Source of the DNA: an uncultured Pelagibacteraceae bacterium
GTDB lineage: Bacteria; Pseudomonadota; Alphaproteobacteria; Pelagibacterales; Pelagibacteraceae
Direction: 5' to 3'
DNA length: 40,391 nt
Assembly: GCA_902578525.1 (NCBI GenBank)
Contig: CACHDJ010000002.1
Span: 72,699-113,089 of the forward strand
Shown here: positions 7,168 through 22,753 of the stretch, piece by piece
Layout: each line of letters begins with the position of its first letter
How positions within the stretch are numbered: the first letter of the stretch is position 1
Notes under the pieces: model-generated
What the model was told of the DNA's origin: nothing
Database searches by the model: none
What the model saw: the letters and a program-made list of their open reading frames with translations, nothing else
Translations under genes and position numbers: made by a program

Positions 7168-8168
7168 TATTTATTTAAATCAACCAAAACTCTTCCTGAA
7201 ATTTCACCTTTTAATATTTTTGGATAAGTTTCAATTAACTCTTCTAAACTTACTGTTTGAATAGATTTTTCTAATAAACTAAAATCAATTAGGTTTGCAG
7301 CTTCACCCCAAATAAACTCTCTTCTTTTAATACTACAGTTAGCAGAGTCCATTCCCCAAAGTTTTATTCCTCTAAGCATAAATGGAATTACACTTGTGTT
7401 AAGTTCATTAGTATTTGCATTTCCACACACAGCTATTATTCCATTTGGGTTAGTTTGAACTATTGCATTAGCTAAGATTTTTCCACCTACCGTATCTACT
7501 ACACCATCCCATAAACCTTTATCGATTAGTCTCGGATCTTTGTCAAATTCAGCTCTATTTATAACAGTTTTAGCACCTATTGATTTTAAATGATCAGCTT
7601 TTGAATTTTTTCCTGTCACTGCAGTCACGTTGTAACCCATTTTATTCAATACAATCACTGCAATACTTCCGACACCTCCTGTCGCCCCAGTAACTAAAAC
7701 ATCGTTCACTTTTTCACCAAGCAATATTTCTTCTCTTGCTTTAATTGCAAAAGCACTCATTAGCGAGGTAAAGCCAGCAGTTCCAAGTATCATCGCTTGC
7801 TTACTTGTTAAATTTTTTGGTTTTTTTACTAAAAAATCTCCTTTAACTTTTGCTAGTTGCGAGTATCCGCCATAAAAGATTTCTCCAACTCTAAAACCAG
7901 TTAAAATAACCTCATCACCTTCCTTAAAATTTGAATTTTCACTTTCAATAACAGTTCCTGAAAAATCAATACCTGGTATATGAGGAAACTCTTTAACTAG
8001 TCTTCCTCCATTTTTTAAGATCATTCCATCTTTAAAGTTTAGATCAGAATAATCTACTTTAATTGTTACATCTCCGTGTTTTAAAAAACTTTTATCTATT
8101 GATTTGACTTCTCGAGTAAACTCTTCTCCTTTTTGATCAAGAATTAATGCTTTGAATTGATCTGACAC
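7167..8168 (-). CDS. acuI: Acryloyl-CoA reductase AcuI/YhdH family
   Basis: A 333-aa zinc-free medium-chain dehydrogenase. It has the YhdH/AcuI start FKALIL, SDLNFKDGM at 42-50 and the NADPH-binding GATGGVG at 161-167. AcuI reduces acryloyl-CoA to propionyl-CoA with NADPH, protecting cells that break down DMSP or acrylate. That role fits an organism with DMSP-linked genes, but the assignment within the quinone-reductase-like family is by similarity only. The start codon is GTG; no in-frame ATG lies near it. It begins 1 nt after folE ends. Confidence 0.82.
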   Translation of the reverse strand: MSDQFKALILDQKGEEFTREVKSIDKSFLKHGDVTIKVDYSDLNFKDGMILKNGGRLVKEFPHIPGIDFSGTVIESENSNFKEGDEVILTGFRVGEIFYGGYSQLAKVKGDFLVKKPKNLTSKQAMILGTAGFTSLMSAFAIKAREEILLGEKVNDVLVTGATGGVGSIAVIVLNKMGYNVTAVTGKNSKADHLKSIGAKTVINRAEFDKDPRLIDKGLWDGVVDTVGGKILANAIVQTNPNGIIAVCGNANTNELNTSVIPFMLRGIKLWGMDSANCSIKRREFIWGEAANLIDFSLLEKSIQTVSLEELIETYPKILKGEISGRVLVDLNK

Positions 8169-8169
8169 T

Positions 8170-8784
8170 TTAATCTTTTGAAATACTAATAAATCTTAAG
8201 TATCTATTTTGATAACTAAGATCATCTTTAAATTTACCTAAATAATAATTTGTTACAGTTGTAGCTTGTTCTTTTTTTATACCTCTCATAGTCATACATT
8301 GATGGGTTGAGTCTATTGTTACAGCTACTCCTTTTGCATCTAAAGACTCCATTAAGGTATTCGCAATCTGCATAGTTAATCTTTCTTGAGTTTGTAATCT
8401 TTTTGAAAAAACTTCCACTACTCTAGCTAACTTACTCAAACCAACAACTCTATCTTTTGGAATATATGCTACATGGGCTTTACCTATAATAGGTGCCATA
8501 TGATGTTCACAATGACTTTGAACGGAAATATTTTTTTGAATTACCATATCGTCATAACCATCTACGTCTCCAAAGGTTTTATCTAAAATCTTAGAAGGAT
8601 CTTCTTTGTATCCTTTAAAATATTCTTTAAAGGCTTTAACGACTCTTTTAGGAGTTTCTAATAATCCTTCTCTATTTGGGTCCTCACCCATCCAAGATAA
8701 TATTGTTTTGAAAGCTTCTTCAGCTTCCTTGTCAGAAACCTTATTTGAGATTTCGTTGCTATTCGTATCTTTAACTAATTTCAT
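8170..8784 (-). CDS. folE: GTP cyclohydrolase I
   Basis: A 204-aa enzyme making 7,8-dihydroneopterin triphosphate from GTP, the first step to folate. The zinc ligands Cys92, His95 (in HCEHHMAPI) and Cys163 (in HQCMTMRG) are all present, as is GLSKLARVVEVFSKRLQTQERLT. Length and motifs match FolE type I. A folate supply is relevant to the tetrahydrofolate-using enzymes in this window. It is divergent from hisI across a 76-bp AT-rich region and is the first gene of folE-acuI-lysR. Confidence 0.96.
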   Translation of the reverse strand: MKLVKDTNSNEISNKVSDKEAEEAFKTILSWMGEDPNREGLLETPKRVVKAFKEYFKGYKEDPSKILDKTFGDVDGYDDMVIQKNISVQSHCEHHMAPIIGKAHVAYIPKDRVVGLSKLARVVEVFSKRLQTQERLTMQIANTLMESLDAKGVAVTIDSTHQCMTMRGIKKEQATTVTNYYLGKFKDDLSYQNRYLRFISISKD

Positions 8785-12301: not shown

Positions 12302-13050
12302 TATATCACCTTTGCCTCATTTTTTAATTTTTGAACTAATTCTGCTACATTTGCAACTTTAATACCTGCTTTTCTTTTTGGTGGTTCTTCTATTTTTATT
12401 TGTTCCACTCTTGGAGCAGTGTCTACACCTAAATCTGTGGCATTGATCTCTTCAATAGGTTTCTTTTTAGCTTTCATTATATTTGGTAATGAGGCATATC
12501 TTGGCTCGTTTAATCTTAAATCACAAGTTACAATTGCTGGAATGTTAACTTCTATTGTCTCTAACCCCTCGTCTATTTCTCTTGTAACTTCTAAACTATT
12601 TTCCTTAACCTCAATCTTAGATGCAAAAGTTGCTTGTGGCCAATTCAACAATGCGCTCAACATTTGTCCAGTTTGATTACAGTCGTCATCAATTGCTTGT
12701 TTGCCCATAAATACTAAATCTGGTTTTTCCTTTTCTACAATCTTTTGTAAAATTTTTGAAACAGCCAATGGTTCAAGTATGCCGTCAGCTTTAATATGTA
12801 TACCTCTATCAGCCCCAACTGCTAAAGCTTTTCTAACAGTTTCTTGAGCTTTTTCCTCTCCAATAGTTATTGCAACTATTTCTGTTGCTTTACCAGCCTC
12901 TTTAATTTTTACTGCTTCTTCTATAGCATTATCATCTGGTGGATTTGTAGACATCTTTACATTTTCTGTCACAACCCCTGAGCCATCTTCTTTAACTCTT
13001 ATTTGAACATTGTAATCTATTACTCTTTTAACAGCGACCAATATTTTCAT
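12301..13050 (-). CDS. etfB: Electron transfer flavoprotein beta subunit
   Basis: A 249-aa ETF beta subunit. It begins [15 protein letters not shown] and contains the AMP-binding region [16 protein letters not shown] and the recognition segment [15 protein letters not shown], where partner dehydrogenases dock in group I ETFs. It forms a heterodimer with EtfA. Its start overlaps the stop of the DMGDH gene by 1 nt, so it is made with its likely electron donor. Confidence 0.96.
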
Positions 13051-15482
13051 TAAGCTCTCAATAATTTATTTTCAGAGTCATATGGACTCTCATCTAATAC
13101 TGTAGCGTCGTACATTTCACCTAAGATATCAACTTGTAATTTGTCACCCACTTTTGCAAAATCTGGTTTTACCATTGCCAAAGCTATTGATTTATCTAAC
13201 CTAAATCCAAATTCTCCTCCTGTTGCTCTTCCGACTACCTTGTTATCTTTATATATAGGATTATTTCCTAAAACATCCGCATCTTTAGTATTATGAACTT
13301 CTAAAGTAACTAATTTATTATCAAATCCTTTTTCTCTCCATTTATTAAGAGCCTCTAGACCTATAAAGTTTCCTTTATTTGGATGAACAAATCTATCTAG
13401 ACCAGACTCATACGGAGAGTATTCTATAGATAATTCAGTGCCAACTAATTTATATGATTTTTCAAGTCTCAAACTGTTCATTGCCCTAATTCCAAAAGGT
13501 TTTATTCCCAAGCTTTTACCTTCTTCCATTAATTTATCAAAAATATGATTTTGATATTCAATTGGATGATGTAATTCCCAACCTAATTCACCAACAAAAT
13601 TTACTCTCATAGCATTTACCGGAGCATACCCAACATTAACATTTTTAGCTGTTAACCATTTAAAATTTTCATTTGAAAAATCATCTGTAGAAACTTTTTG
13701 CATTAATTCTCTAGCTTTGGGTCCTGCTACCACAAGAACTCCAGTGCTATTTGTAAGATCTTCAAATATAACTGAGCCATCATTTGGCATCCATTTTTGT
13801 ATCCAATCATGATCAAGCCTTAGATTTGCACCAGCAGAAACTAAATAATAAGAGTTTTCTGCTTCCTTCATAATTGTAAATTCTGAATGAACTCCGCCTT
13901 TGGTATTAAGTGCATGACACAAATTAATCCTACCAATTTTTTTTGGAATTTTATTGGCTACTAAATAATCTAAAAACTCCTCAGATTTAGGTCCTTTAAT
14001 TCTACATTTAGCAAATGCTGTCATGTCTAAAAGACCAACATTTTCTTTTACATTCTGACATTCTTTCTTAATTGCATCAAACCATTTAGATCTTCTGAAG
14101 GACCAATCATCCTTTTGCTCCATACCATCTCTTGCAAAAAAATTAGGTCTTTCCCATCCAAATTTTTGACCAAAAACTGCACCCAAATTTTTCATTCTTT
14201 CGTAACAAGGAGCAGTTCTTAGAGGTCTTGCAGCAGGTCTTTCTTCATCAGGATAGTGTGTAATAAAAACATGACTGTAAGCTTCTTCATTTTTAGCTTT
14301 TAAATAAGATTTAGTTGCGTAGTTTCCATACCGTCTCGGTTCAACACCAAGCATGTCTATAGTTGGTTCACCATCAACAATCCATTCAGCTAATTGCCAA
14401 CCTGCTCCTCCAGCAGCAGTAATTCCAAAACTATGTCCTTCATTAATCCAAAAATTTTTTAATCCCCAAGCAGGACCTACAATTGGATTGCCATCCGGAG
14501 TATAACAAATAGCTCCATTATAAACTTTTTTAACTCCAACTTCTCCAAAGGCAGGAACACGATGAATTGCGCCTTCAATATGTGGTGCAAGTCTATCTAA
14601 ATCTTCTTGAAATAGTTCGTACTCAGAGTTTTTGGAAGGTCCTTCAACATAGCAAGCTGGGGCACCATCTTCGTATGGTCCTAAAATTAATCCACCTGCT
14701 TCTTCTCTCATATACCATCTGCTATCACTATCTCTTAAAACTCCCATCTCAGGTAGTCCATCTTTTTTTCTTTTTTGAATTTCAGGATGTGGTTCAGTTA
14801 CAATATATTGATGCTCAACTGGTATGACTGGAATATCTAATCCAACCATCTCCCCTGTTTGTCTTGCAAAATTACCTGAGCAAGAGATTATATGTTCACA
14901 TTCAATTGAACCTTTATCAGTTTCAACAACCCAACCGTCTTTAGTTTGTCTCATAGCAACAACAGCAGTGTTTCTATAAATTTCTGCGCCCATGTTTCTC
15001 GCACCTGTAGCAAGTGCTTGGGTTAAATCAGCTGGTTGAATATAACCATCCTCTGGATGTTGAATTGCACCTACCAAATCATCTGTATGACATAAGGGCC
15101 AAATTTCTTTTACTTGATTGGGCGTTAAAAATTTAACATCAACACCTATAGTTTTAGCTACACCAGCATATTGATGGTATTCGTCCATTCTGTCTTTGGT
15201 ACTTGCTAAACGAATATTTGATACAACACTAAAACCCACATTTTTTCCAGTCTCTTCCTCTAATTTTTTATAAAGATCTACAGCATATTTATGAAGCTGT
15301 CCTACAGAATAACTCATATTAAACAGAGGCAATAATCCAGCAGCGTGCCAAGTTGAACCTGAAGTTAGCTCCTTACGTTCCACTAAAACAACATCAGACC
15401 AACCTTTTTTAGCTAAATGATATAGGGCACTAACACCTACTACACCACCTCCAACTACTACAACTTTAGTTTTTGTTTTCAT
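13050..15482 (-). CDS. dmgdh: Dimethylglycine dehydrogenase-like FAD/GcvT fusion
   Basis: An 810-aa two-part protein. The N-terminal half (about 1-390) is a D-amino-acid-oxidase type flavoprotein with [14 protein letters not shown] at 7-20 and STWHAAGL, whose His46 is in the position that holds FAD covalently in mammalian DMGDH. The C-terminal half (about 430-800) is a GcvT-type folate-binding domain ending in the barrel typical of T-protein. It would oxidise dimethylglycine (or sarcosine) and hand the methyl carbon to tetrahydrofolate, with electrons going to ETF. The ATG at 15482 has AGGAA upstream; the frame opens one codon earlier with TTG. The directly following etfB, etfA and ETF-QO genes support the role. 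Exact substrate is inferred. Confidence 0.88.
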
Positions 15483-15538
15483 CAACGATTCCTACTAAAT
15501 TTTTTGAAATAACGAAACAAAATTGTAACTATGTATAT

Positions 15539-16012
15539 TCAAATTGAACTTCCAAGTGGGATGGGATTTGAGACCATAGTAGTAAGCCAACAATCCTTGA
15601 GTTCCCCATCTTCAATATATTTTTCAACTTGCCAATTAAACTTATGGTAAATTTTATTCTTATCTAAAATAACTACTTCAAATTGAGCCCATTTCTCACC
15701 GCTTCCAAGCTGAGTAATTGTGTGACTTAGATGATTAAGCATCATCTGGTAAGTATCCCCTTTTATCATTCTTTTAAAATTGTCTAATGGACCAGTTACT
15801 TTTTTATTGTTTGGATGTGCAAAATTCCAAGTCTGTTCAATTCCGCTATCTTTATAATCTCTATCATTATTCATAAGGCCAACTAATTGGATTTTTACTA
15901 CTTCTTTAGGTAAAATTGAATTTTTAGGAATTAATAAATCTGCATTTACAAATGAAGCGTTAAAGAAAAAAAAAATTATTACACTAAACGTTAAGTGCAG
16001 TTTTTTTGACAT
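15539..16012 (-). CDS. Exported DUF4864-like protein
   Basis: A protein of about 157 aa with a clear signal peptide (MSKKLHLTF, then a hydrophobic run and N-A-D cleavage). The mature part resembles DUF4864: an N-terminal helix VKIQLVGLMNNDRDYKDSG, AWTFA-like WNFAHP, then FKRMIKGDTYQMMLNH and a C-terminal sheet ending WLTTMVS. The start is uncertain: adjacent ATGs at 16015 and 16012 precede the signal peptide, and the frame opens with GTG at 16042. It overlaps the end of the flavodoxin-fold gene by 29 nt. The family's function is unknown; it is probably periplasmic. Confidence 0.66.
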   Translation of the reverse strand: MSKKLHLTFSVIIFFFFNASFVNADLLIPKNSILPKEVVKIQLVGLMNNDRDYKDSGIEQTWNFAHPNNKKVTGPLDNFKRMIKGDTYQMMLNHLSHTITQLGSGEKWAQFEVVILDKNKIYHKFNWQVEKYIEDGELKDCWLTTMVSNPIPLGSSI

Positions 16013-16553
16013 CATTAAGGAATTCTTTTCTTTTTTTATCACCTACAAATGGTACAGCAAAGTATCTTCTATATATAACATCCGTTATGCCGCATATATT
16101 GAATACTCCTCTTCGAAGTCTTTTTGTTGGCATATTAAGAAAAAAAGTTCTTACAGCAAATTGTGGAGAACCATAAGTACAAAATATGACAGCTTTTTTT
16201 CCTTTTAAATTTCCAATTGGATATCCATAATTTCCAAAAAGTCTTTTAAATCTAAATGCCCAAGGTGGAGCTAAAACTTTGTCTATCCATCCTTCAACAA
16301 TTGCAGGCATTCTAAAATTCCATATTGGTGCAATTAATACTATTGCGTTAGAATTTTCTATTCTTTTCCTGTGATCTAAAACTATTTTGTCTGGTTCTTC
16401 TCCAGAAAAAACTGGATTAAACTTTTCATTATATAGATCAACAACATCTACATTATGTCCAATTTCCTCTACTGTTTTTATGAAAGTATCTTTAATTGCA
16501 GCATTAAATGACTTGTTATCATAGTGACCATATACAAGAAATATATTTTTCAT
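15984..16553 (-). CDS. Flavodoxin-fold NAD(P)H:quinone oxidoreductase
   Basis: A 189-aa protein of the NQO1/KefF/MdaB family. Features are the FMN phosphate-binding start VYGHYDNKSFNAAI, the segment APIWNFRMPAIVEGWIDKV, in which the W and the P/A-rich turn contact flavin, and TYGSPQ in the substrate/flavin loop. These are cytoplasmic two-electron quinone reductases; the true acceptor is unknown. It starts 1 nt after the CoA-binding gene ends, on the same transcript. It is not a ferredoxin reductase and so is not an obvious partner for the Rieske oxygenase at the head of the operon. Confidence 0.8.
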   Translation of the reverse strand: MKNIFLVYGHYDNKSFNAAIKDTFIKTVEEIGHNVDVVDLYNEKFNPVFSGEEPDKIVLDHRKRIENSNAIVLIAPIWNFRMPAIVEGWIDKVLAPPWAFRFKRLFGNYGYPIGNLKGKKAVIFCTYGSPQFAVRTFFLNMPTKRLRRGVFNICGITDVIYRRYFAVPFVGDKKRKEFLNDVKKTALNV

Positions 16554-16554
16554 T

Positions 16555-16989
16555 CTAACTTTGTAAAACTGGAAAGGCCTGACGTATTTTTAAAAAATGT
16601 TTTTGATATTCCATCTTAGTACACTTGTCTTCAATATATTCAATTTTATTTTCTTTAACAATTTTTTTTGCTTGCTCGCTTCTAATTCCAAGTTGTAACC
16701 ATAAAACTTTAGCCCTAATATTTATTGTATCTTTTGCAATATCTAAAACTTCTCTGGAGGGTCTAAAAACATCTACAATATCTATTTTATCTTTAATATC
16801 GGTAATTTTTGCAAAAACTTCTTCACCTAAAATTTTTTGTCCTTTTGCTGATGGATTAACTGGATAAACTTTATAACCATATTTTTGCATATATTTCATA
16901 ACAATAGTAGATGATTTAGTTGGATCATTACTTACTCCAATCATTGCAATGGATTTATACTTTGAAAGAATATCTTTAATATCGCTCAT
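16555..16989 (-). CDS. CoA-binding domain protein (YccU-like)
   Basis: A 144-aa Rossmann-fold protein of the CoA_binding_2 family. It has SIAMIGVSNDPTKSS near the N-terminus, GYKVYPVNPSAKGQKILGE, DIVDVFRPS and KVLWLQLGIRSEQA. These match stand-alone succinyl-CoA-ligase-type CoA-binding proteins such as YccU. They lack a catalytic histidine domain, and their function is not settled. It lies between the 60-aa membrane protein (11 bp) and the flavodoxin-fold gene. Confidence 0.86.
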   Translation of the reverse strand: MSDIKDILSKYKSIAMIGVSNDPTKSSTIVMKYMQKYGYKVYPVNPSAKGQKILGEEVFAKITDIKDKIDIVDVFRPSREVLDIAKDTINIRAKVLWLQLGIRSEQAKKIVKENKIEYIEDKCTKMEYQKHFLKIRQAFPVLQS

Positions 16990-17000
16990 TATTTTTATCT

Positions 17001-17183
17001 TTAGTTCCTTATTTTATCTTCACAGAACTTTTTTGCTTCTTTAGTGGTCATTTGTTTATTTAGTTGTTTACTGCCTGCAATACAAGCATCAATAGCTCTT
17101 TTAAAATTATGATCTCTAAAATCTAAAACAACATATAGTCCAACAATTATGAATATAACAATTAACATATTTTTAATTGTCAT
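17001..17183 (-). CDS. 60-aa single-pass membrane protein
   Basis: A small protein with one transmembrane helix (about residues 5-21, IKNMLIVIFIIVGLYVVLD) followed by a hydrophilic, basic tail with two cysteines (DACIAG and KFCEDK). The ATG overlaps the stop of the preceding crotonase gene in an ATGA arrangement, good evidence that it is translated. No family is recognised. The two cysteines, about 20 residues apart on one side of the membrane, could form a disulfide if periplasmic. Confidence 0.6.
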   Translation of the reverse strand: MTIKNMLIVIFIIVGLYVVLDFRDHNFKRAIDACIAGSKQLNKQMTTKEAKKFCEDKIRN

Positions 17184-17953
17184 TTATTTTTCCATTTTGG
17201 TTTTCTTTTTTCTAAAAATGCGGAAATACCTTCTTTAGCATCCATAGCCATCATATTTAACGTCATCATTTTGCTTGTATATGCATAAGCCTTTCTTAAG
17301 GGCATTTCTAATTGTTTATAAAAAGCTCGTTTACCAATTTTAATTGTAAGATTAGATTTTGAAGCAATCTTTTTAGCAATTTTCAATACTTCACTGTTCA
17401 ATTTTGTTTTTGAAAAACAATCATTAATTAATCCAACTTCTTTTGCATAATTTGCCTTAATAGGTTCTCCAGTAAGTAACATTTTCATCATAGGTTTCCT
17501 GTTAATTTTTCTGCTAACTGCCACCATTGGTGTGCTACAAAACAAACCAATGTTTACCCCAGGGGTAGCAAATAAAGCATCACTTGTACTGTAAGCTAAA
17601 TCACAACTTGCAACTAATTGACATCCGGCTGCATAGGCAGCACCATGAACTTTAGCAATAACTGGTTTTTTTCCTTCAACAATTTGGGTCATTAATTTTG
17701 AGCAAAGGTTAAATAATTTTTGATACTTTTCTTTTTTTTTTAATCCTCTTACCTCTTTTAAATTATGACCGGCACTAAATCCTTTTCCAGCTCCCTCAAG
17801 AATTATTACTTTAACTTTTTTATCATTATCAAGTTTTTTAAAAACTTTAATTAAATCATGAAGATTTTTTGTTGATAAAGAGTTATATGTTTTAGGATCG
17901 TTAATTATAACTCTTGAAATATCTTTTTCTTGATTAATAACTTTAATATTCAT
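17180..17953 (-). CDS. Crotonase-fold protein without catalytic Glu (ECHDC3-like)
   Basis: A 257-aa crotonase-superfamily protein. The CoA-binding and oxyanion-hole motif FSAGHNLKEV and the second loop HGAAYAAGCQLVASCD are clear. At the two positions where enoyl-CoA hydratases have glutamates it has Gln (AAGCQL instead of GGCEL) and Gly (FATPGVNIG instead of FGQPE), so hydratase chemistry of the usual kind is unlikely. The segment GVNIGLFCSTP matches the vertebrate ECHDC3 group as I recall it. It acts on an acyl-CoA or similar, but the reaction is unknown. It starts 6 bp after the nucleotidyltransferase ends, within the Rieske operon. Confidence 0.82.
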   Translation of the reverse strand: MNIKVINQEKDISRVIINDPKTYNSLSTKNLHDLIKVFKKLDNDKKVKVIILEGAGKGFSAGHNLKEVRGLKKKEKYQKLFNLCSKLMTQIVEGKKPVIAKVHGAAYAAGCQLVASCDLAYSTSDALFATPGVNIGLFCSTPMVAVSRKINRKPMMKMLLTGEPIKANYAKEVGLINDCFSKTKLNSEVLKIAKKIASKSNLTIKIGKRAFYKQLEMPLRKAYAYTSKMMTLNMMAMDAKEGISAFLEKRKPKWKNK

Positions 17954-17959
17954 TTAGGA

Positions 17960-18334
17960 TTATTTAAGTTTACCTTCTTCTCTCATCTTTGCTCTAATTT
18001 TGGTAGCTGAGATTTCTTGAATTTCTTTCGAAAGTTCGATTTCTTCAATTTTATATCCTACACCTCTTCCATAACAAATATTTGTGATATTTGGCACCAT
18101 CATAATCTTGAAACGTCCTTCAAACTCAGGATTTAATCTATCTTCAATATTCTTTTTAACAGTTTCAAAATCAAAAGGATTGTCATCAACCCCTTGAACA
18201 TCCCTAATTTGAATACAAACTTGACCTGTTTTTTTTATTATTTCTTTAAATAAAGTATAATGACCATCATGAAACGGTTGCCATCTACCTAACATTTGTG
18301 CAGTTGGTTTTTTATTATCCCAATTGTAAGTCAT
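17960..18334 (-). CDS. HxGH-type nucleotidyltransferase, NMNAT-like
   Basis: A 124-aa cytidylyltransferase/adenylyltransferase-fold protein. It has the nucleotide-binding LGRWQPFHDGH (HxGH type, about 15-25) and ISATKIR near the C-terminus, corresponding to the ISSTxxR motif. The ATG at 18334 has GGAGAT upstream and overlaps the kinase stop (TAATG). It resembles nicotinamide-nucleotide adenylyltransferase domains but is short and lacks a partner nicotinamide pathway gene here. Substrate unknown. Pairing with a kinase suggests sequential phosphorylation and nucleotidylation of one metabolite. Confidence 0.8.
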   Translation of the reverse strand: MTYNWDNKKPTAQMLGRWQPFHDGHYTLFKEIIKKTGQVCIQIRDVQGVDDNPFDFETVKKNIEDRLNPEFEGRFKIMMVPNITNICYGRGVGYKIEEIELSKEIQEISATKIRAKMREEGKLK

Positions 18335-18741
18335 TATTTTATCTCCTTTAATATTTTTGGTGCCCAATTTTTAGCATCTTGAGTTGTAACATGAAAGTCA
18401 TACTTGTCAGGTTTTACAAACATTTTATTTGTGTCATCAAATCTTCCCTCTTTTATTGTATCAACCCAAATAGTGAAGTCTGCAGGAAACAAACTTCTTG
18501 CTTTTGGTGTTGGGCAAATAAAATCAGCAACAACATAGTTTCCCTCAGTTTTTAATTTAGTTGCAAAGTCTGCCATTCTTTTGGCCTGTCTTTTTCTTCC
18601 TTCTTCAGAAAAATCCCAATCATTAGCTTCCTTTCTTACCTCGTCTGCATTTAACCTTTTTGCATTTAGCATCGGGCCTAACTCATTTGCTAAAGTTGTT
18701 TTCCCTGAACCAGGTAAGCCCATTATTAATATAATCTTCAT
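18334..18741 (-). CDS. APS-kinase-like P-loop kinase
   Basis: A 135-aa P-loop protein with Walker A GLPGSGKT at 8-15, an LNADEVRKEANDWDFS segment and VVADFICPTPKAR, like the core of adenylylsulfate kinase (CysC). It is about 60 residues shorter than typical CysC. The ATG at 18741 overlaps the methyltransferase stop; nine in-frame codons upstream lack support. CysC makes PAPS from APS, but no sulfurylase gene is here. The tight coupling with a nucleotidyltransferase points to another substrate. Confidence 0.8.
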   Translation of the reverse strand: MKIILIMGLPGSGKTTLANELGPMLNAKRLNADEVRKEANDWDFSEEGRKRQAKRMADFATKLKTEGNYVVADFICPTPKARSLFPADFTIWVDTIKEGRFDDTNKMFVKPDKYDFHVTTQDAKNWAPKILKEIK

Positions 18742-19367
18742 TATTTTACTCGATACAATCCAAGCCAAGCATTTACATCCTTGCTGGCTATATAATCTGA
18801 TTTAAAAAATTCTAATTCAACCCATTTATTATCTTGTTTTAAATTTTCAATTTTTTTATCAAAACCATATTCTTTGTAAATACCTTCATTAATTGTAAAA
18901 CAAATCAGTCCACCCCTTTTAGTTATTCGAACAAATTCATCTAAAGCTTGGGGTTTTACATGTCCAAAAGTAAAAGTTCCTACACACATTGTTGCTTCAT
19001 AAAAATTGTCTTGAACATCTATAGGTTTATTTAAATCAACCTTTATTAATTTTTGATAGAGATTGTTTGGAACAGAATCTAGTAATTTTTGTGAAAGATC
19101 AGCTCCGTGAAAATGCTTAAAACCAAATTTTTTTAATTGCAAACCTACTAAACCAGTGCCACATCCTGCGTCAAATATAAGAATTTCTTTGTTTTCTGTA
19201 TGTTTTTTAAAAACCTCAACAGTTTCTTTTGGTCCTGTGTAATTCCATTCAAGCATATCTTTATTGTATTTATCTTTGTCCCCCCACTCATCATAATATT
19301 TCATAACCTCATCAGTAGTCTTAAGTTTATAAATAGGAACTTTATTACCAACATCTTTCAATGCCAT
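18741..19367 (-). CDS. Class I SAM-dependent methyltransferase
   Basis: A 208-aa protein with SAM motif I FDAGCGTG at 65-72, the acidic ribose-binding residue Asp90 at the end of strand 2 (HGADLS) and a motif near TMCVGTFTFGHV. It is a small-molecule type methyltransferase (UbiE/Methyltransf_25-like); the acceptor is unknown. It starts 7 bp after the Rieske gene ends and its stop overlaps the kinase start, so all three are probably translated in series. Confidence 0.85.
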   Translation of the reverse strand: MALKDVGNKVPIYKLKTTDEVMKYYDEWGDKDKYNKDMLEWNYTGPKETVEVFKKHTENKEILIFDAGCGTGLVGLQLKKFGFKHFHGADLSQKLLDSVPNNLYQKLIKVDLNKPIDVQDNFYEATMCVGTFTFGHVKPQALDEFVRITKRGGLICFTINEGIYKEYGFDKKIENLKQDNKWVELEFFKSDYIASKDVNAWLGLYRVK

Positions 19368-19374
19368 TTTAATT

Positions 19375-20571
19375 TTACTCCATTAAACTATTTGCTACCC
19401 ATTTATGAAATTGATGAGTTGGTTGATCCATTACAGGAGAAAAGTTTCCACCATTATAAACTGGTGAACTTCTTCCATCCTGCATTCCTTCGATTGCACT
19501 TATATCTTCGATCATTACATCTTTCCAAAATCTTGAATTTTCTTTTCTCAATTCTTTCAAATATTCGCCATTCGCACTTTCATTTCCAACATAATACATC
19601 TGCATATGTTCTTTGGTCTTGTTCATTGATAAAGGTTCTAACCAAAAAACATAAAAATGATCAACATGTAAGCCAATCATTACATTAGGAAATAATGCAA
19701 TATATTCTGAATTTTTTAACTTATTTTTTTTCCAATTTGAAAATGAATTAAATTTTTTATTTCCTCTGATTAACTGTTCGTAATTTTTACTTCCTTGACC
19801 AGCAAATCTATTCGGTAATCCTTGAATATGATAATGATCATTAATATTAGAAACCTTATTTAACTCTGGGTGAATTGTTGGTAAATGATAGCTTTCACAA
19901 TAATTTTCAATCGCAAATTTCCAATTACATTTTACCTCTAAACTAAAGTAACCATAATCGTTTGAATGTACTATTAATTTCTGATCTTCTTTATTAATTA
20001 AATTAGACCATCTTTCTTCAAGAGGTTTAATATAATCATTAAAAGAAATTTCATTAGAATTAATATTAACAAAAATAATATCCATCCAAATTTTTGTTCG
20101 AACTTCTTTTAAATTGCTTTTAGTTTTATCAAATTTTTCAGATTGATGATTATTTAAACCTCCAATATGAGGAGTTGCTACTAGGTTTCCTTTAAAGTCA
20201 TAAGACCACGAGTGATAAGGGCATCTAATAACATTTTTAAAATTACATGCTTTGTCTAAAAGCTTAAATCCTCTATGGCTACATACATTATGAAACACTC
20301 GAATCTTCATATCTTTATCTCTAATTAAAATTAGAGGAATCCCGAGTAGATTGTATGGTTTAGCATCTCCTACGTTTGGAATAGAGCTTCCAACACCAAC
20401 TACTGTCCATTTATTGAAAAAAATCTTCTCTCTTTCGTGGTCTAAATAATTGGCATTTGTGTAGCACTCATTTGGTAAGCCATTTGCGACTTCTATAGAC
20501 TTATCTACATTATTTAATTTTTCAATATCTAGGATTTCTGAAATAGGTAAATTTTTAAGATTCTGATCCAC
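19375..20571 (-). CDS. Rieske [2Fe-2S] oxygenase alpha subunit
   Basis: A ring-hydroxylating-dioxygenase-type protein of 398 aa if it starts at the GTG at 20571. The Rieske cluster is held by Cys97-x-His99 and Cys117-x2-His120 (CSHRG and CPYHSWSYD). The mononuclear iron site has His229 and His234 (CESYHLPTIHPE), and a later Asp in IEDISAIEGMQDG as third ligand. The pattern is closest to the choline/glycine-betaine/carnitine monooxygenase group, an inference. The frame is open upstream to a TTG at 20652; the added 27 residues are basic and unlike the family. No reductase subunit is nearby. It heads the operon with the methyltransferase and kinase and is divergent from the MetF-like gene. Confidence 0.85.
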   Translation of the reverse strand: MDQNLKNLPISEILDIEKLNNVDKSIEVANGLPNECYTNANYLDHEREKIFFNKWTVVGVGSSIPNVGDAKPYNLLGIPLILIRDKDMKIRVFHNVCSHRGFKLLDKACNFKNVIRCPYHSWSYDFKGNLVATPHIGGLNNHQSEKFDKTKSNLKEVRTKIWMDIIFVNINSNEISFNDYIKPLEERWSNLINKEDQKLIVHSNDYGYFSLEVKCNWKFAIENYCESYHLPTIHPELNKVSNINDHYHIQGLPNRFAGQGSKNYEQLIRGNKKFNSFSNWKKNKLKNSEYIALFPNVMIGLHVDHFYVFWLEPLSMNKTKEHMQMYYVGNESANGEYLKELRKENSRFWKDVMIEDISAIEGMQDGRSSPVYNGGNFSPVMDQPTHQFHKWVANSLME

Positions 20572-20673: not shown

Positions 20674-21402
20674 ATGAACTTTTCTTTGGAAATTAGTCCC
20701 AAAACAGACCTTGATACAGTCCCAAAGGTAAGTGATGTTTATATCACAATGTTACCTGGTGGAGATTATAAAGAGACTGCTCAAAAAGCTATTGAACTAG
20801 TTAAAAAAGGATTTAACCCGGTACCACATTTTCCAGCAAGATCTATGCAGAATGAAATAGAGCTCAAAGATTATGTTGATATGTGTAAAGACGGAGGAGT
20901 TAAGCAAGCTTTAATTATAGGCGGTGGTAGAGAGCCATTAGGAAAATTTGATAGCTCATTTCAACTTTTAGAGACCGGTTATTTTGAAAAAATGAAGATA
21001 GGAATTGCTGGACACCCAGAGGGGAGTCCTGATATATCCGACTCAGATTTAGAAAAAGCTATGATAGATAAAAAGCCTTATGCTGATTACATAGTAACTC
21101 AATGGTTACTTGATCCTCAGCCTATCGTAGATTTTATATCTAAACAAAGCGTGCCAGTTCATGTGGGAATCACTGGGCCTTTAAAAATATCTAGCTTAAT
21201 AAAATTTGCTAATATTGTTGGAGCAAAAAATTCCCTTAACTTTCTTAAATCTAATTTTAGTAAGGCGTTAGATTTATTGAAACCTAAAGACCCTAATGAT
21301 TTAATTGGGAAAGTTAAATCGCATACTGATTTCTTCCACATTTATACATTCGGCGGCTTGAAGGAAACTAACAAGTGGTTGAAGGAGAATGGTTATGTCT
21401 AA
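20674..21402 (+). CDS. MetF-like methylenetetrahydrofolate reductase
   Basis: A 242-aa TIM-barrel protein related to 5,10-methylenetetrahydrofolate reductase but about 50 residues shorter than typical MetF. It has SLEISPKT at the N-terminus, VPHFPARSM (strand 2, in place of the usual AHLTC), IIGGGREP, IGIAGHPEGSP and GGLKETNKWL near the end. Because it is coupled to a DmdA-like gene (8-nt overlap), it may oxidise methyl-THF made by that protein to methylene-THF. That direction is inferred. Confidence 0.78.
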   Translation: MNFSLEISPKTDLDTVPKVSDVYITMLPGGDYKETAQKAIELVKKGFNPVPHFPARSMQNEIELKDYVDMCKDGGVKQALIIGGGREPLGKFDSSFQLLETGYFEKMKIGIAGHPEGSPDISDSDLEKAMIDKKPYADYIVTQWLLDPQPIVDFISKQSVPVHVGITGPLKISSLIKFANIVGAKNSLNFLKSNFSKALDLLKPKDPNDLIGKVKSHTDFFHIYTFGGLKETNKWLKENGYV

Positions 21403-22753
21403 AGAATTTGATTATACTAAACTAAGACATGTTACTTCAGTAGATCAATCAGATCGAGAAGTACCATATAATTTAAGACAAAGTGGACCAACAAAAGTTG
21501 AAATGCTAATTTCAACAAGGGTAAGAAAATCACCTTATTGGCATTTATCAATGCAAGCTGGATGTTGGAGAGCAACAGTTTACAATCGTATCTATCATCC
21601 AAGAGGTTATGTAAAACCTGAGGACGGTGGAGCTATGGTAGAATACGATGCTATAGTTAATCATGTAACAATGTGGAATGTTGCAGTAGAAAGACAAATA
21701 AGAGTTAAAGGTCCAGATGCTGAAAAGTTTACTAATTATGTAATTACTAGAGATGCAACTAAAATTTCTCCAATGAGAGCAAGATACGTAATTTTATGTA
21801 ATGCATACGGAGGAGTTTTGAATGATCCTATACTCTTAAGAATTTCTAAAGATGAATTTTGGTTTTCTTTGTCAGATTCTGATATTGGGATGTATCTTCA
21901 GGGTGTAAATGCTGATCAAAGATTCAACTGTTCTGTTGAAGAAATAGATGCTTGTCCTGTGCAAATTCAAGGTCCTAAATCTAAAGCTTTAATGAAAGAT
22001 CTTTGTGGAGATCAAGTTGATTTTGATAATATGCCATTTTATGGCTTAGCTGAAGTTAAAGTTGGAGGAAAAAGCTGTGTTATCTCACAATCAGGTTTCT
22101 CTGGTGAAGCTGGATATGAAATATATTTAAGAAATGCAACGCTTCATGCTGAAGATATGTGGAATGCAGTCTTGGATGCAGGAAAAAAACATAACTTAAT
22201 GGTTATTGCCCCTGCACACCATAGAAGAATTCAAGCTGGAATTCTTTCTTGGGGACAAGATATGGACCAACAACACAATCCTTTTCAATGTAACCTAGGT
22301 TATCAAGTTTCGCTTTCAGGTAAAGGTGAGTGGAATAAAAAAGAGGATTATGTTGGTAAAGCAGCTCTAGAAAAAATGAAGAATGAGCTAAAAGCTGGTA
22401 AAAAACCTTATAAACTCCAGCTAGTTGGTCTCGAATTAGGAGGAAAACCAATTGAAGATTATGCTCCAGATTTTTGGTTAGTTTCAAATGAACAAGGAGG
22501 AGATCCAGTAGGTTTCTTAACCTCTCCTTGGTATCATCCTGAAAAGAAAACTAATATTGCAATGGGATATGTGCCATTTGATGGAACTTTAAACACAAAT
22601 GGTTTTCCAAAAGGGAAGGTTGGAACTAAATATAAGGTTCATTTGCCTGAAAAATACTCTGATAAACCAGGCCAGCCTGTAGATGCAGTAGTAGTTGATA
22701 TTCCATTTAAAGAATCTTTCAACGCAAATACAAGGGAAGTTGTAAAAGGTTAA
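21395..22753 (+). CDS. GcvT/DmdA-like THF-dependent methyltransferase
   Basis: A 452-aa protein of the aminomethyltransferase (GcvT) fold, longer than DMSP demethylase DmdA (about 370 aa). DmdA-like stretches include MWNVAVERQIRVKGPDAEKF, SGFSGEAGYEIYL and SWGQDMDQQHNPF. The ATG at 21395 has AAGGAG at 7-nt spacing; an ATG 6 nt earlier is too close to that site. These enzymes move a methyl or methylene group to tetrahydrofolate. Substrate may be DMSP or another methylated compound. The overlapping MetF-like gene supports one-carbon oxidation. Not confidently DmdA itself because of length and divergence. Confidence 0.8.
   Translation: MSKEFDYTKLRHVTSVDQSDREVPYNLRQSGPTKVEMLISTRVRKSPYWHLSMQAGCWRATVYNRIYHPRGYVKPEDGGAMVEYDAIVNHVTMWNVAVERQIRVKGPDAEKFTNYVITRDATKISPMRARYVILCNAYGGVLNDPILLRISKDEFWFSLSDSDIGMYLQGVNADQRFNCSVEEIDACPVQIQGPKSKALMKDLCGDQVDFDNMPFYGLAEVKVGGKSCVISQSGFSGEAGYEIYLRNATLHAEDMWNAVLDAGKKHNLMVIAPAHHRRIQAGILSWGQDMDQQHNPFQCNLGYQVSLSGKGEWNKKEDYVGKAALEKMKNELKAGKKPYKLQLVGLELGGKPIEDYAPDFWLVSNEQGGDPVGFLTSPWYHPEKKTNIAMGYVPFDGTLNTNGFPKGKVGTKYKVHLPEKYSDKPGQPVDAVVVDIPFKESFNANTREVVKG

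Follow-up and report, generated by a model that had tools for sequence, protein, structure and literature searches.

A compact kinase-nucleotidyltransferase pair proposed to activate sulfate in SAR11 bacteria, other alphaproteobacteria, haloarchaeal plasmids and phages

Introduction

ATP sulfurylases of two non-homologous kinds, Sat and CysDN, have been named (PMC6286981), and our search of the literature on novel or non-homologous ATP sulfurylases found only these two classes. SAR11 bacteria are said to be without sat, cysDN and the rest of sulfate activation, while cysC and cysQ are listed (PMC5069961). AprAB is expressed, yet most SAR11 are said to have no ATP sulfurylase (PMC10356861); aprAB is core in the Pelagibacteraceae, with very strong purifying selection in a pathway described as 'incomplete' (PMC12636525). 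The purpose of phage sulfotransferases has been called unclear (PMC10580990). Here we describe two adjacent genes, encoding a shortened kinase and a compact HxGH nucleotidyltransferase (NT), both ~15 kDa, in a 40,391-nucleotide stretch of DNA, hereafter the window, from an uncultured Pelagibacteraceae bacterium (contig CACHDJ010000002.1, positions 72,699 to 113,089) whose genome is SAR11-type, 1.0 Mb in size and 82% complete. We propose, with a probability of about 0.8 on the basis of comparative sequence evidence, that the pair is a compact sulfate-activation module in which NT would serve as ATP sulfurylase and the kinase would make 3'-phosphoadenosine 5'-phosphosulfate (PAPS) from adenosine 5'-phosphosulfate (APS).

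The pair resembles several described systems in part. The bifunctional PAPS synthase of animals, PAPSS, likewise has the kinase first and the adenylyltransferase second, often fused, for the same two proposed reactions, and the PAPSS1 kinase domain has the same fold as the kinase of a fused viral homologue of the pair. However, NT has only about 120 amino acids, resembles the NMN and phosphopantetheine adenylyltransferases (NMNAT and PPAT) and does not match the Sat catalytic domain, and its partner kinase is shortened. Monomeric Sat (PF01747) catalyses the reaction proposed for NT and belongs, as NT does, to the HxGH/HxxH nucleotidyltransferase superfamily, but NT is about one third of its size, has no PF01747 match and carries GRxQPxHxGH and YGRxVGY where Sat has QxRNP/HxxH and GRDHAG. 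CysD-CysNC occupies the same genomic slot, has a mutually exclusive distribution in SAR11 and lies near similar consumers, whereas NT belongs to a different family from its subunits, the PP-loop protein CysD and the GTPase CysN. Compared with the archaeal NMNAT MJ0541, NT is shorter, scores below the family cut-off (28 vs 127 bits) and keeps other genomic company. Finally, the phage family phrog_10255 ('kinase') holds the same pair as a single 230-aa protein, of which PHROGs names only the kinase, leaving the second half without a function and giving no sulfate link. Both window proteins match, in order, the halves of this family (E 3e-32 and 3e-24), which gave the first lead. No published link between NT and sulfate was found in the openly searchable literature, subscription papers and preprints lying outside the search.

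Results

The pair keeps company with sulfur genes

Genome searches detected NT in 169 of 217 SAR11-order genomes and in a minority of other alphaproteobacteria, where it is fused to the kinase in several cases. On plasmids of haloarchaea it is joined to a canonical APS kinase, which the records name cysC. It is also present in isolated phages, and at least 153 IMG/VR stretches contain it. The first-pass annotation of the window had taken kinase and NT to form one functional unit, and their being fused or adjacent across lineages bears this out.

The genes around the pair include ones whose products act on APS or PAPS. In 43 of 82 viral loci a PF00685 sulfotransferase gene lies upstream in the same orientation, at a distance of no more than 1.2 kb, and 36 of 46 viral sulfotransferase placements abut the pair or fall within 100 bp of it. 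Several PF00685-negative viral loci run into a contig edge and some others carry different sulfotransferase families; two P-loop-like upstream genes (L063, L066) matched no family in a Pfam scan and were excluded from the count. Haloarchaeal loci have the order sulfotransferase, CysC-NT fusion and, usually, a YqcI/YcgG-family gene, a cassette that recurs on the plasmids L187-L190. Among alphaproteobacteria, the operon of family f25 runs CbiX, SUMT, sulfite reductase, CysH, DUF2061, kinase, NT, and in SAR11 family f2 kinase-NT stands tail-to-tail with AprA-AprB. In one genome (G441) a tetratricopeptide-repeat sulfotransferase adjoins the pair, and in another (G935) a kinase-NT fusion lies in a surface-polysaccharide cluster next to a PF00685 protein. 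The window's own genome, of which stretches totalling ~688 kb (overlaps included) were read, encodes AprBA, a CysQ-like phosphatase and four sulfotransferases. Searches of this 82% complete assembly found neither Sat nor a CysN that passed the cut-off, nor any PF01507 match of CysD/CysH grade.

This company also bears on whether the activated substrate might be another oxyanion or acid (selenate, molybdate, a phosphonate or a sulfonate, for example) handled through an APS/PAPS-like route. ATP sulfurylases accept other oxyanions, which counts in favour of such a reading; the neighbours, however, are specifically CysH, sulfite reductase, AprBA and sulfotransferases, and we regard it as very unlikely.

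Several further associations were noted. The DUF2061 membrane protein recurs near sulfate-activation genes, being found upstream of kinase-NT (L198:8192-8452), downstream of CysNC (L263:11051-11278) and fused to CysN in Microvirga (L191:9755-11344). In SAR11, AprA and AprB travel with a membrane protein and with a 116-aa protein that is conserved but has no assigned function (L338:1148-4680; G000 contig C2). On viral contigs, genes for PF13759 2-oxoglutarate-Fe(II) oxygenases often lie 3' of kinase-NT (L039:1701-2294, L086:848-1498), and three contigs (L020, L021, L022) carry an NT 89% identical to that of SAR11 with no kinase; the NT neighbours on L021 are DNA-methylase-like and SufE-like genes.

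NT and CysDN exclude and replace one another in the SAR11 order

CysN occurs in 11 of the 217 SAR11-order genomes and never together with NT (overlap 0; Fisher p = 2.3e-8). As the 11 CysN-positive genomes span five genera, the exclusion does not stem from one lineage. Sat was present in two of 38 genomes tested. At the family f2 locus the two systems exchange places: some genomes have kinase-NT-AprBA and another has CysD-CysNC-DUF2061 between flanks that are common on both sides and in which several genes are 84-97% identical. On the first side the flanking proteins are mostly 77-97% identical (one faster-evolving 311-aa neighbour, ~50%), and on the other side HlyD/ABC genes are common to both arrangements; a second CysDNC genome has only the first-side flank in common.

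In Microvirga lotononidis, CysD and CysN lie directly downstream of a kinase-NT fusion. The NT domain of this fusion breaks 6 of the 22 columns that do not otherwise vary among 34 homologues, with S for the G of HxGH, L for the R of YGRxVGY and Q for the R of ISxTxIR among the changes, while the kinase domain departs at 2 of 23 columns of this kind. Next to CysDN in Microvirga it is the NT domain alone that has decayed.

These observations help to judge the direction of the reaction. Conceivably, the unit handles APS and PAPS but NT only removes APS (APS + PPi -> ATP + sulfate, where PPi is pyrophosphate, or phosphorolysis to ADP), draining AprBA, with the kinase as a separate outlet. The adjacency to AprBA in family f2, the presence of AprBA in the window genome, its core status in the Pelagibacteraceae (PMC12636525) and the retention of NT without an adjacent kinase at eight SAR11 loci (see below) all fit such a role. 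Yet NT alongside a sulfotransferase in phages and haloarchaea requires forward synthesis, the CysH-sulfite reductase operon requires sulfate-derived PAPS or APS, and CysDNC, with which the pair is swapped, is a forward enzyme. A drain alone is thus unlikely, although it is the least improbable of the alternatives considered here.

NT has its nearest relatives in NMNAT and PPAT

NT is essentially unannotated: against the Pfam profile CTP_transf_like it scores 20.5 bits, with a cut-off of 21. The HxGH and ISxTxIR motifs and a Rossmann-like fold place it in the HxGH nucleotidyltransferase superfamily, and the residues of both motifs are among 22 columns that are invariant (at least 95%) in an alignment of 34 homologues. 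A structure model (pLDDT 89) has the PPAT/NMNAT fold with Z ~11, and the nearest solved sequence relative is the NMNAT MJ0541 (PRK01153; E 2e-10). A Pfam search gave no match of NT to PF01747, and neither PF01507 nor TIGR02034, used as tests for CysD and CysN, was matched. No ATP sulfurylase structure stood among the Foldseek/VIA matches listed for NT, a result that we do not count as evidence against the function.

Could NT then be an NMN or phosphopantetheine adenylyltransferase whose partner phosphorylates the precursor or the product? Its best sequence and fold neighbours and its GRxQPxHxGH and ISxTxIR motifs are of this type. Nevertheless, NT falls far below the curated NMNAT cut-offs (NF002243, 28.4 vs 127 bits; TIGR01527, 24.4 vs 181 bits). 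SAR11 genomes, that of the window included, encode two additional PF01467 proteins whose sizes match NadD and CoaD, so that NAD and CoA synthesis can do without NT. Furthermore, sulfur genes rather than NAD or CoA genes surround it, and such a role would leave the mutual exclusion with CysN unexplained. We consider a role in NAD or CoA synthesis highly improbable and rejected it on the scores, the separate NadD- and CoaD-sized proteins and the neighbourhood.

The kinase is a shortened relative of APS kinase

The window kinase matches the APS kinase domain profile PF01583 with 45.1 bits (cut-off 21.1), compared with 152 bits for a haloarchaeal fusion (L189), and stays below the adenylyl-sulfate kinase equivalog TIGR00455 (36 vs 138.7 bits). 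The shortened clade has an invariant GLPGSGKTT P-loop together with D33, R36, F44, R49 and Q52. The APS-site pattern D..R / F....R..N is thereby retained with an N to Q deviation at position 52, which is the canonical N in the haloarchaeal fusions. In the fused viral homologue the kinase part has the APS-kinase fold, with human PAPSS1 as its top Foldseek match.

A kinase tree fell into two supported halves, one with CysC and the haloarchaeal fusions, the other with the shortened kinases of SAR11, phages and alphaproteobacteria. Since the haloarchaeal fusions belong to the CysC half, one NT family has been joined to two kinds of APS kinase. Distances among kinases and among NTs are correlated (Mantel r 0.83; 0 of 2000 permutations). 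The first-pass annotation had held that tight grouping with CysC and with NMNATs of known role would speak against any special pathway. On this point the outcome is mixed: the kinase is indeed an APS-kinase relative but falls in a supported clade of its own, separate from CysC, and NT lies below every curated NMNAT cut-off.

The unit in SAR11 is kinase-NT rather than a four-enzyme pathway

All of the genes named in the first-pass annotation were found at their places on the minus strand of the window, and their coordinates confirm the junctions: a 7-bp gap between the Rieske oxygenase and methyltransferase genes, followed by one-base TAATG stop/start overlaps from methyltransferase to kinase and from kinase to NT (Table 1). 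The annotation had suggested a dedicated pathway in which one small molecule is phosphorylated, nucleotidylated, methylated and oxidised, and the tight spacing in this genome speaks in its favour.

We compared the best 80 loci from a contig scan, all of them from SAR11, of which 72 have both flanks. The flanks are fixed, with MetF-like and DmdA-like genes on one side and a small gene of no assigned function and a dimethylglycine-dehydrogenase-like gene on the other. Between them NT and a crotonase-fold protein are present at 72/72 loci and the kinase at 65/72, a clustering far in excess of chance. In contrast, the Rieske and methyltransferase genes are inconstant: they occur at 39 and 29 loci, respectively, neither occurs at 22, and the methyltransferase gene may precede or follow the Rieske gene. 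NT is also the best-conserved interior protein (median identity 94%, as against 81% for Rieske and 76% for methyltransferase). Thus kinase, NT and crotonase are not scattered within SAR11, whereas the other two enzymes, being optional and reordered, are unlikely to be steps of the kinase-NT pathway. Nor were these two found beside kinase-NT in the neighbourhoods compared from phages, other alphaproteobacteria and haloarchaea. The four-step scheme is contradicted by the neighbourhood data and has been set aside; we give it the least credence of all the alternatives, and the functional unit is the kinase-NT pair. It remains true that this exact gene set corresponds to no named pathway.

The order of action proposed earlier, kinase then NT, is likewise not supported. 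APS kinases, the relatives of this kinase, act on the product of an adenylyltransferase. Moreover, at eight SAR11 loci (L116, L119, L122, L123, L131, L134, L135 and L136, near 8001) NT is intact and the kinase is absent from the locus, so that NT can be retained without a neighbouring kinase; a ninth kinase-less locus is truncated by the contig start.

Discussion

NT occurs in contexts that need a sulfurylase, is absent where CysN is present within the SAR11 order, changes places with CysDNC and has decayed beside CysDN; we therefore propose that it is an ATP sulfurylase. From the same comparisons we infer sulfate or APS as its substrate, the direction of its reaction and the action of the shortened kinase on APS. 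NT would move AMP from ATP onto sulfate, yielding APS and pyrophosphate, and the adjacent kinase would add a phosphate to the 3'-OH of APS; the resulting PAPS could be consumed by sulfotransferases or, where present, by CysH. In settings where AprBA makes APS by oxidising sulfite, NT may work in the reverse direction (APS + PPi -> ATP + sulfate). The eight loci without an adjacent kinase suggest that NT also serves AprBA-derived APS, but this is the least certain step.

On this proposal NT would form a class of ATP sulfurylase separate from both Sat and CysDN, and kinase-NT would be a minimal PAPS synthase. It is probable, though with somewhat less assurance than the sulfate-activating role itself, that there exists a further, ~120-aa NMNAT-like class of ATP sulfurylase, with which SAR11 makes PAPS and turns the APS of AprBA into ATP and sulfate, and which travels with an APS kinase among SAR11, other alphaproteobacteria, haloarchaeal plasmids and phages.

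Several observations weigh against this interpretation. NT has no recognisable similarity to Sat and is nearest to NMNAT and PPAT in both sequence and fold; we infer a change of substrate from these relatives because of the genomic context. In SAR11 family f1 the pair adjoins genes of one-carbon and dimethylsulfoniopropionate type, not sulfate genes. The CysN genomes are few and partly related, making the p value optimistic, with perhaps only ~3-5 independent events. At least one genome (G246) has CysN with an intact NT, another (G083) holds both Sat and NT, and the window genome is only 82% complete.

If the proposal is correct, the pair does the job of enzymes that SAR11 was believed to be missing. 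With a hidden sulfurylase, sulfite oxidation in the ocean's most abundant heterotroph would be complete and would yield ATP. Such an enzyme would also explain why SAR11 retains cysC, cysQ and sulfotransferases, and would provide a source of PAPS for the phage sulfotransferases.

Other features of the locus

The pair and its neighbours in the window are listed in Table 1. The Rieske gene product matches the Pfam families Rieske (61 bits) and Ring_hydroxyl_A (158 bits) but scores 119 bits against GbcA, far under the cut-off of 670; the methyltransferase matches Methyltransf_11 with 40 bits.

Table 1. Genes of the kinase-NT locus and its flanks (positions within the window)
Product	Position	Strand	Basis and occurrence
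NT: compact HxGH nucleotidyltransferase, 124 aa, proposed ATP sulfurylase	17960..18334	-	GRWQPFHDGH and ISATKIR motifs; phrog_10255 C-terminal half
Kinase: shortened APS kinase, 135 aa, proposed PAPS-forming step	18334..18741	-	PF01583, 45 bits; phrog_10255 N-terminal half
Crotonase-fold protein without the two catalytic Glu	17180..17953	-	NF006008, 353 bits; 72/72 loci
S-adenosylmethionine methyltransferase, optional passenger	18741..19367	-	PF08241; 29/72 SAR11 loci
Rieske oxygenase alpha subunit, optional passenger	19375..20571	-	PF00355, PF00848; 39/72 SAR11 loci
60-aa membrane protein, optional	17001..17183	-	40/72 loci
CoA-binding domain protein	16555..16989	-	PF13380; 67/72 loci
Flavodoxin-fold NAD(P)H oxidoreductase, optional	15984..16553	-	PF02525; 33/72 loci
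Methylenetetrahydrofolate reductase-like protein, fixed flank	20674..21402	+	PF02219 match slightly below cut-off; flanks most SAR11 loci
DmdA/GcvT-like demethylase, fixed flank	21389..22753	+	NF009133, 230 bits vs cut-off 410
Unknown protein, fixed flank	15539..16015	-	Conserved position in SAR11 loci
Dimethylglycine/sarcosine dehydrogenase-like protein, fixed flank	13050..15485	-	Electron transfer flavoprotein genes downstream

The crotonase had been called non-catalytic, and its sequence agrees with this: it reads CQL and PGV in place of the CEL and PEI of enoyl-CoA hydratase, so that both acidic residues are absent. In SAR11 it always lies 3' of NT, and kinase-NT has no such neighbour elsewhere; a link between the crotonase and sulfate activation is not indicated. 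Finally, the NT match of G357, a complete SAR11 genome, is spread over two frames (L200, ~7932-8305), reflecting either a frameshift or a sequencing error.

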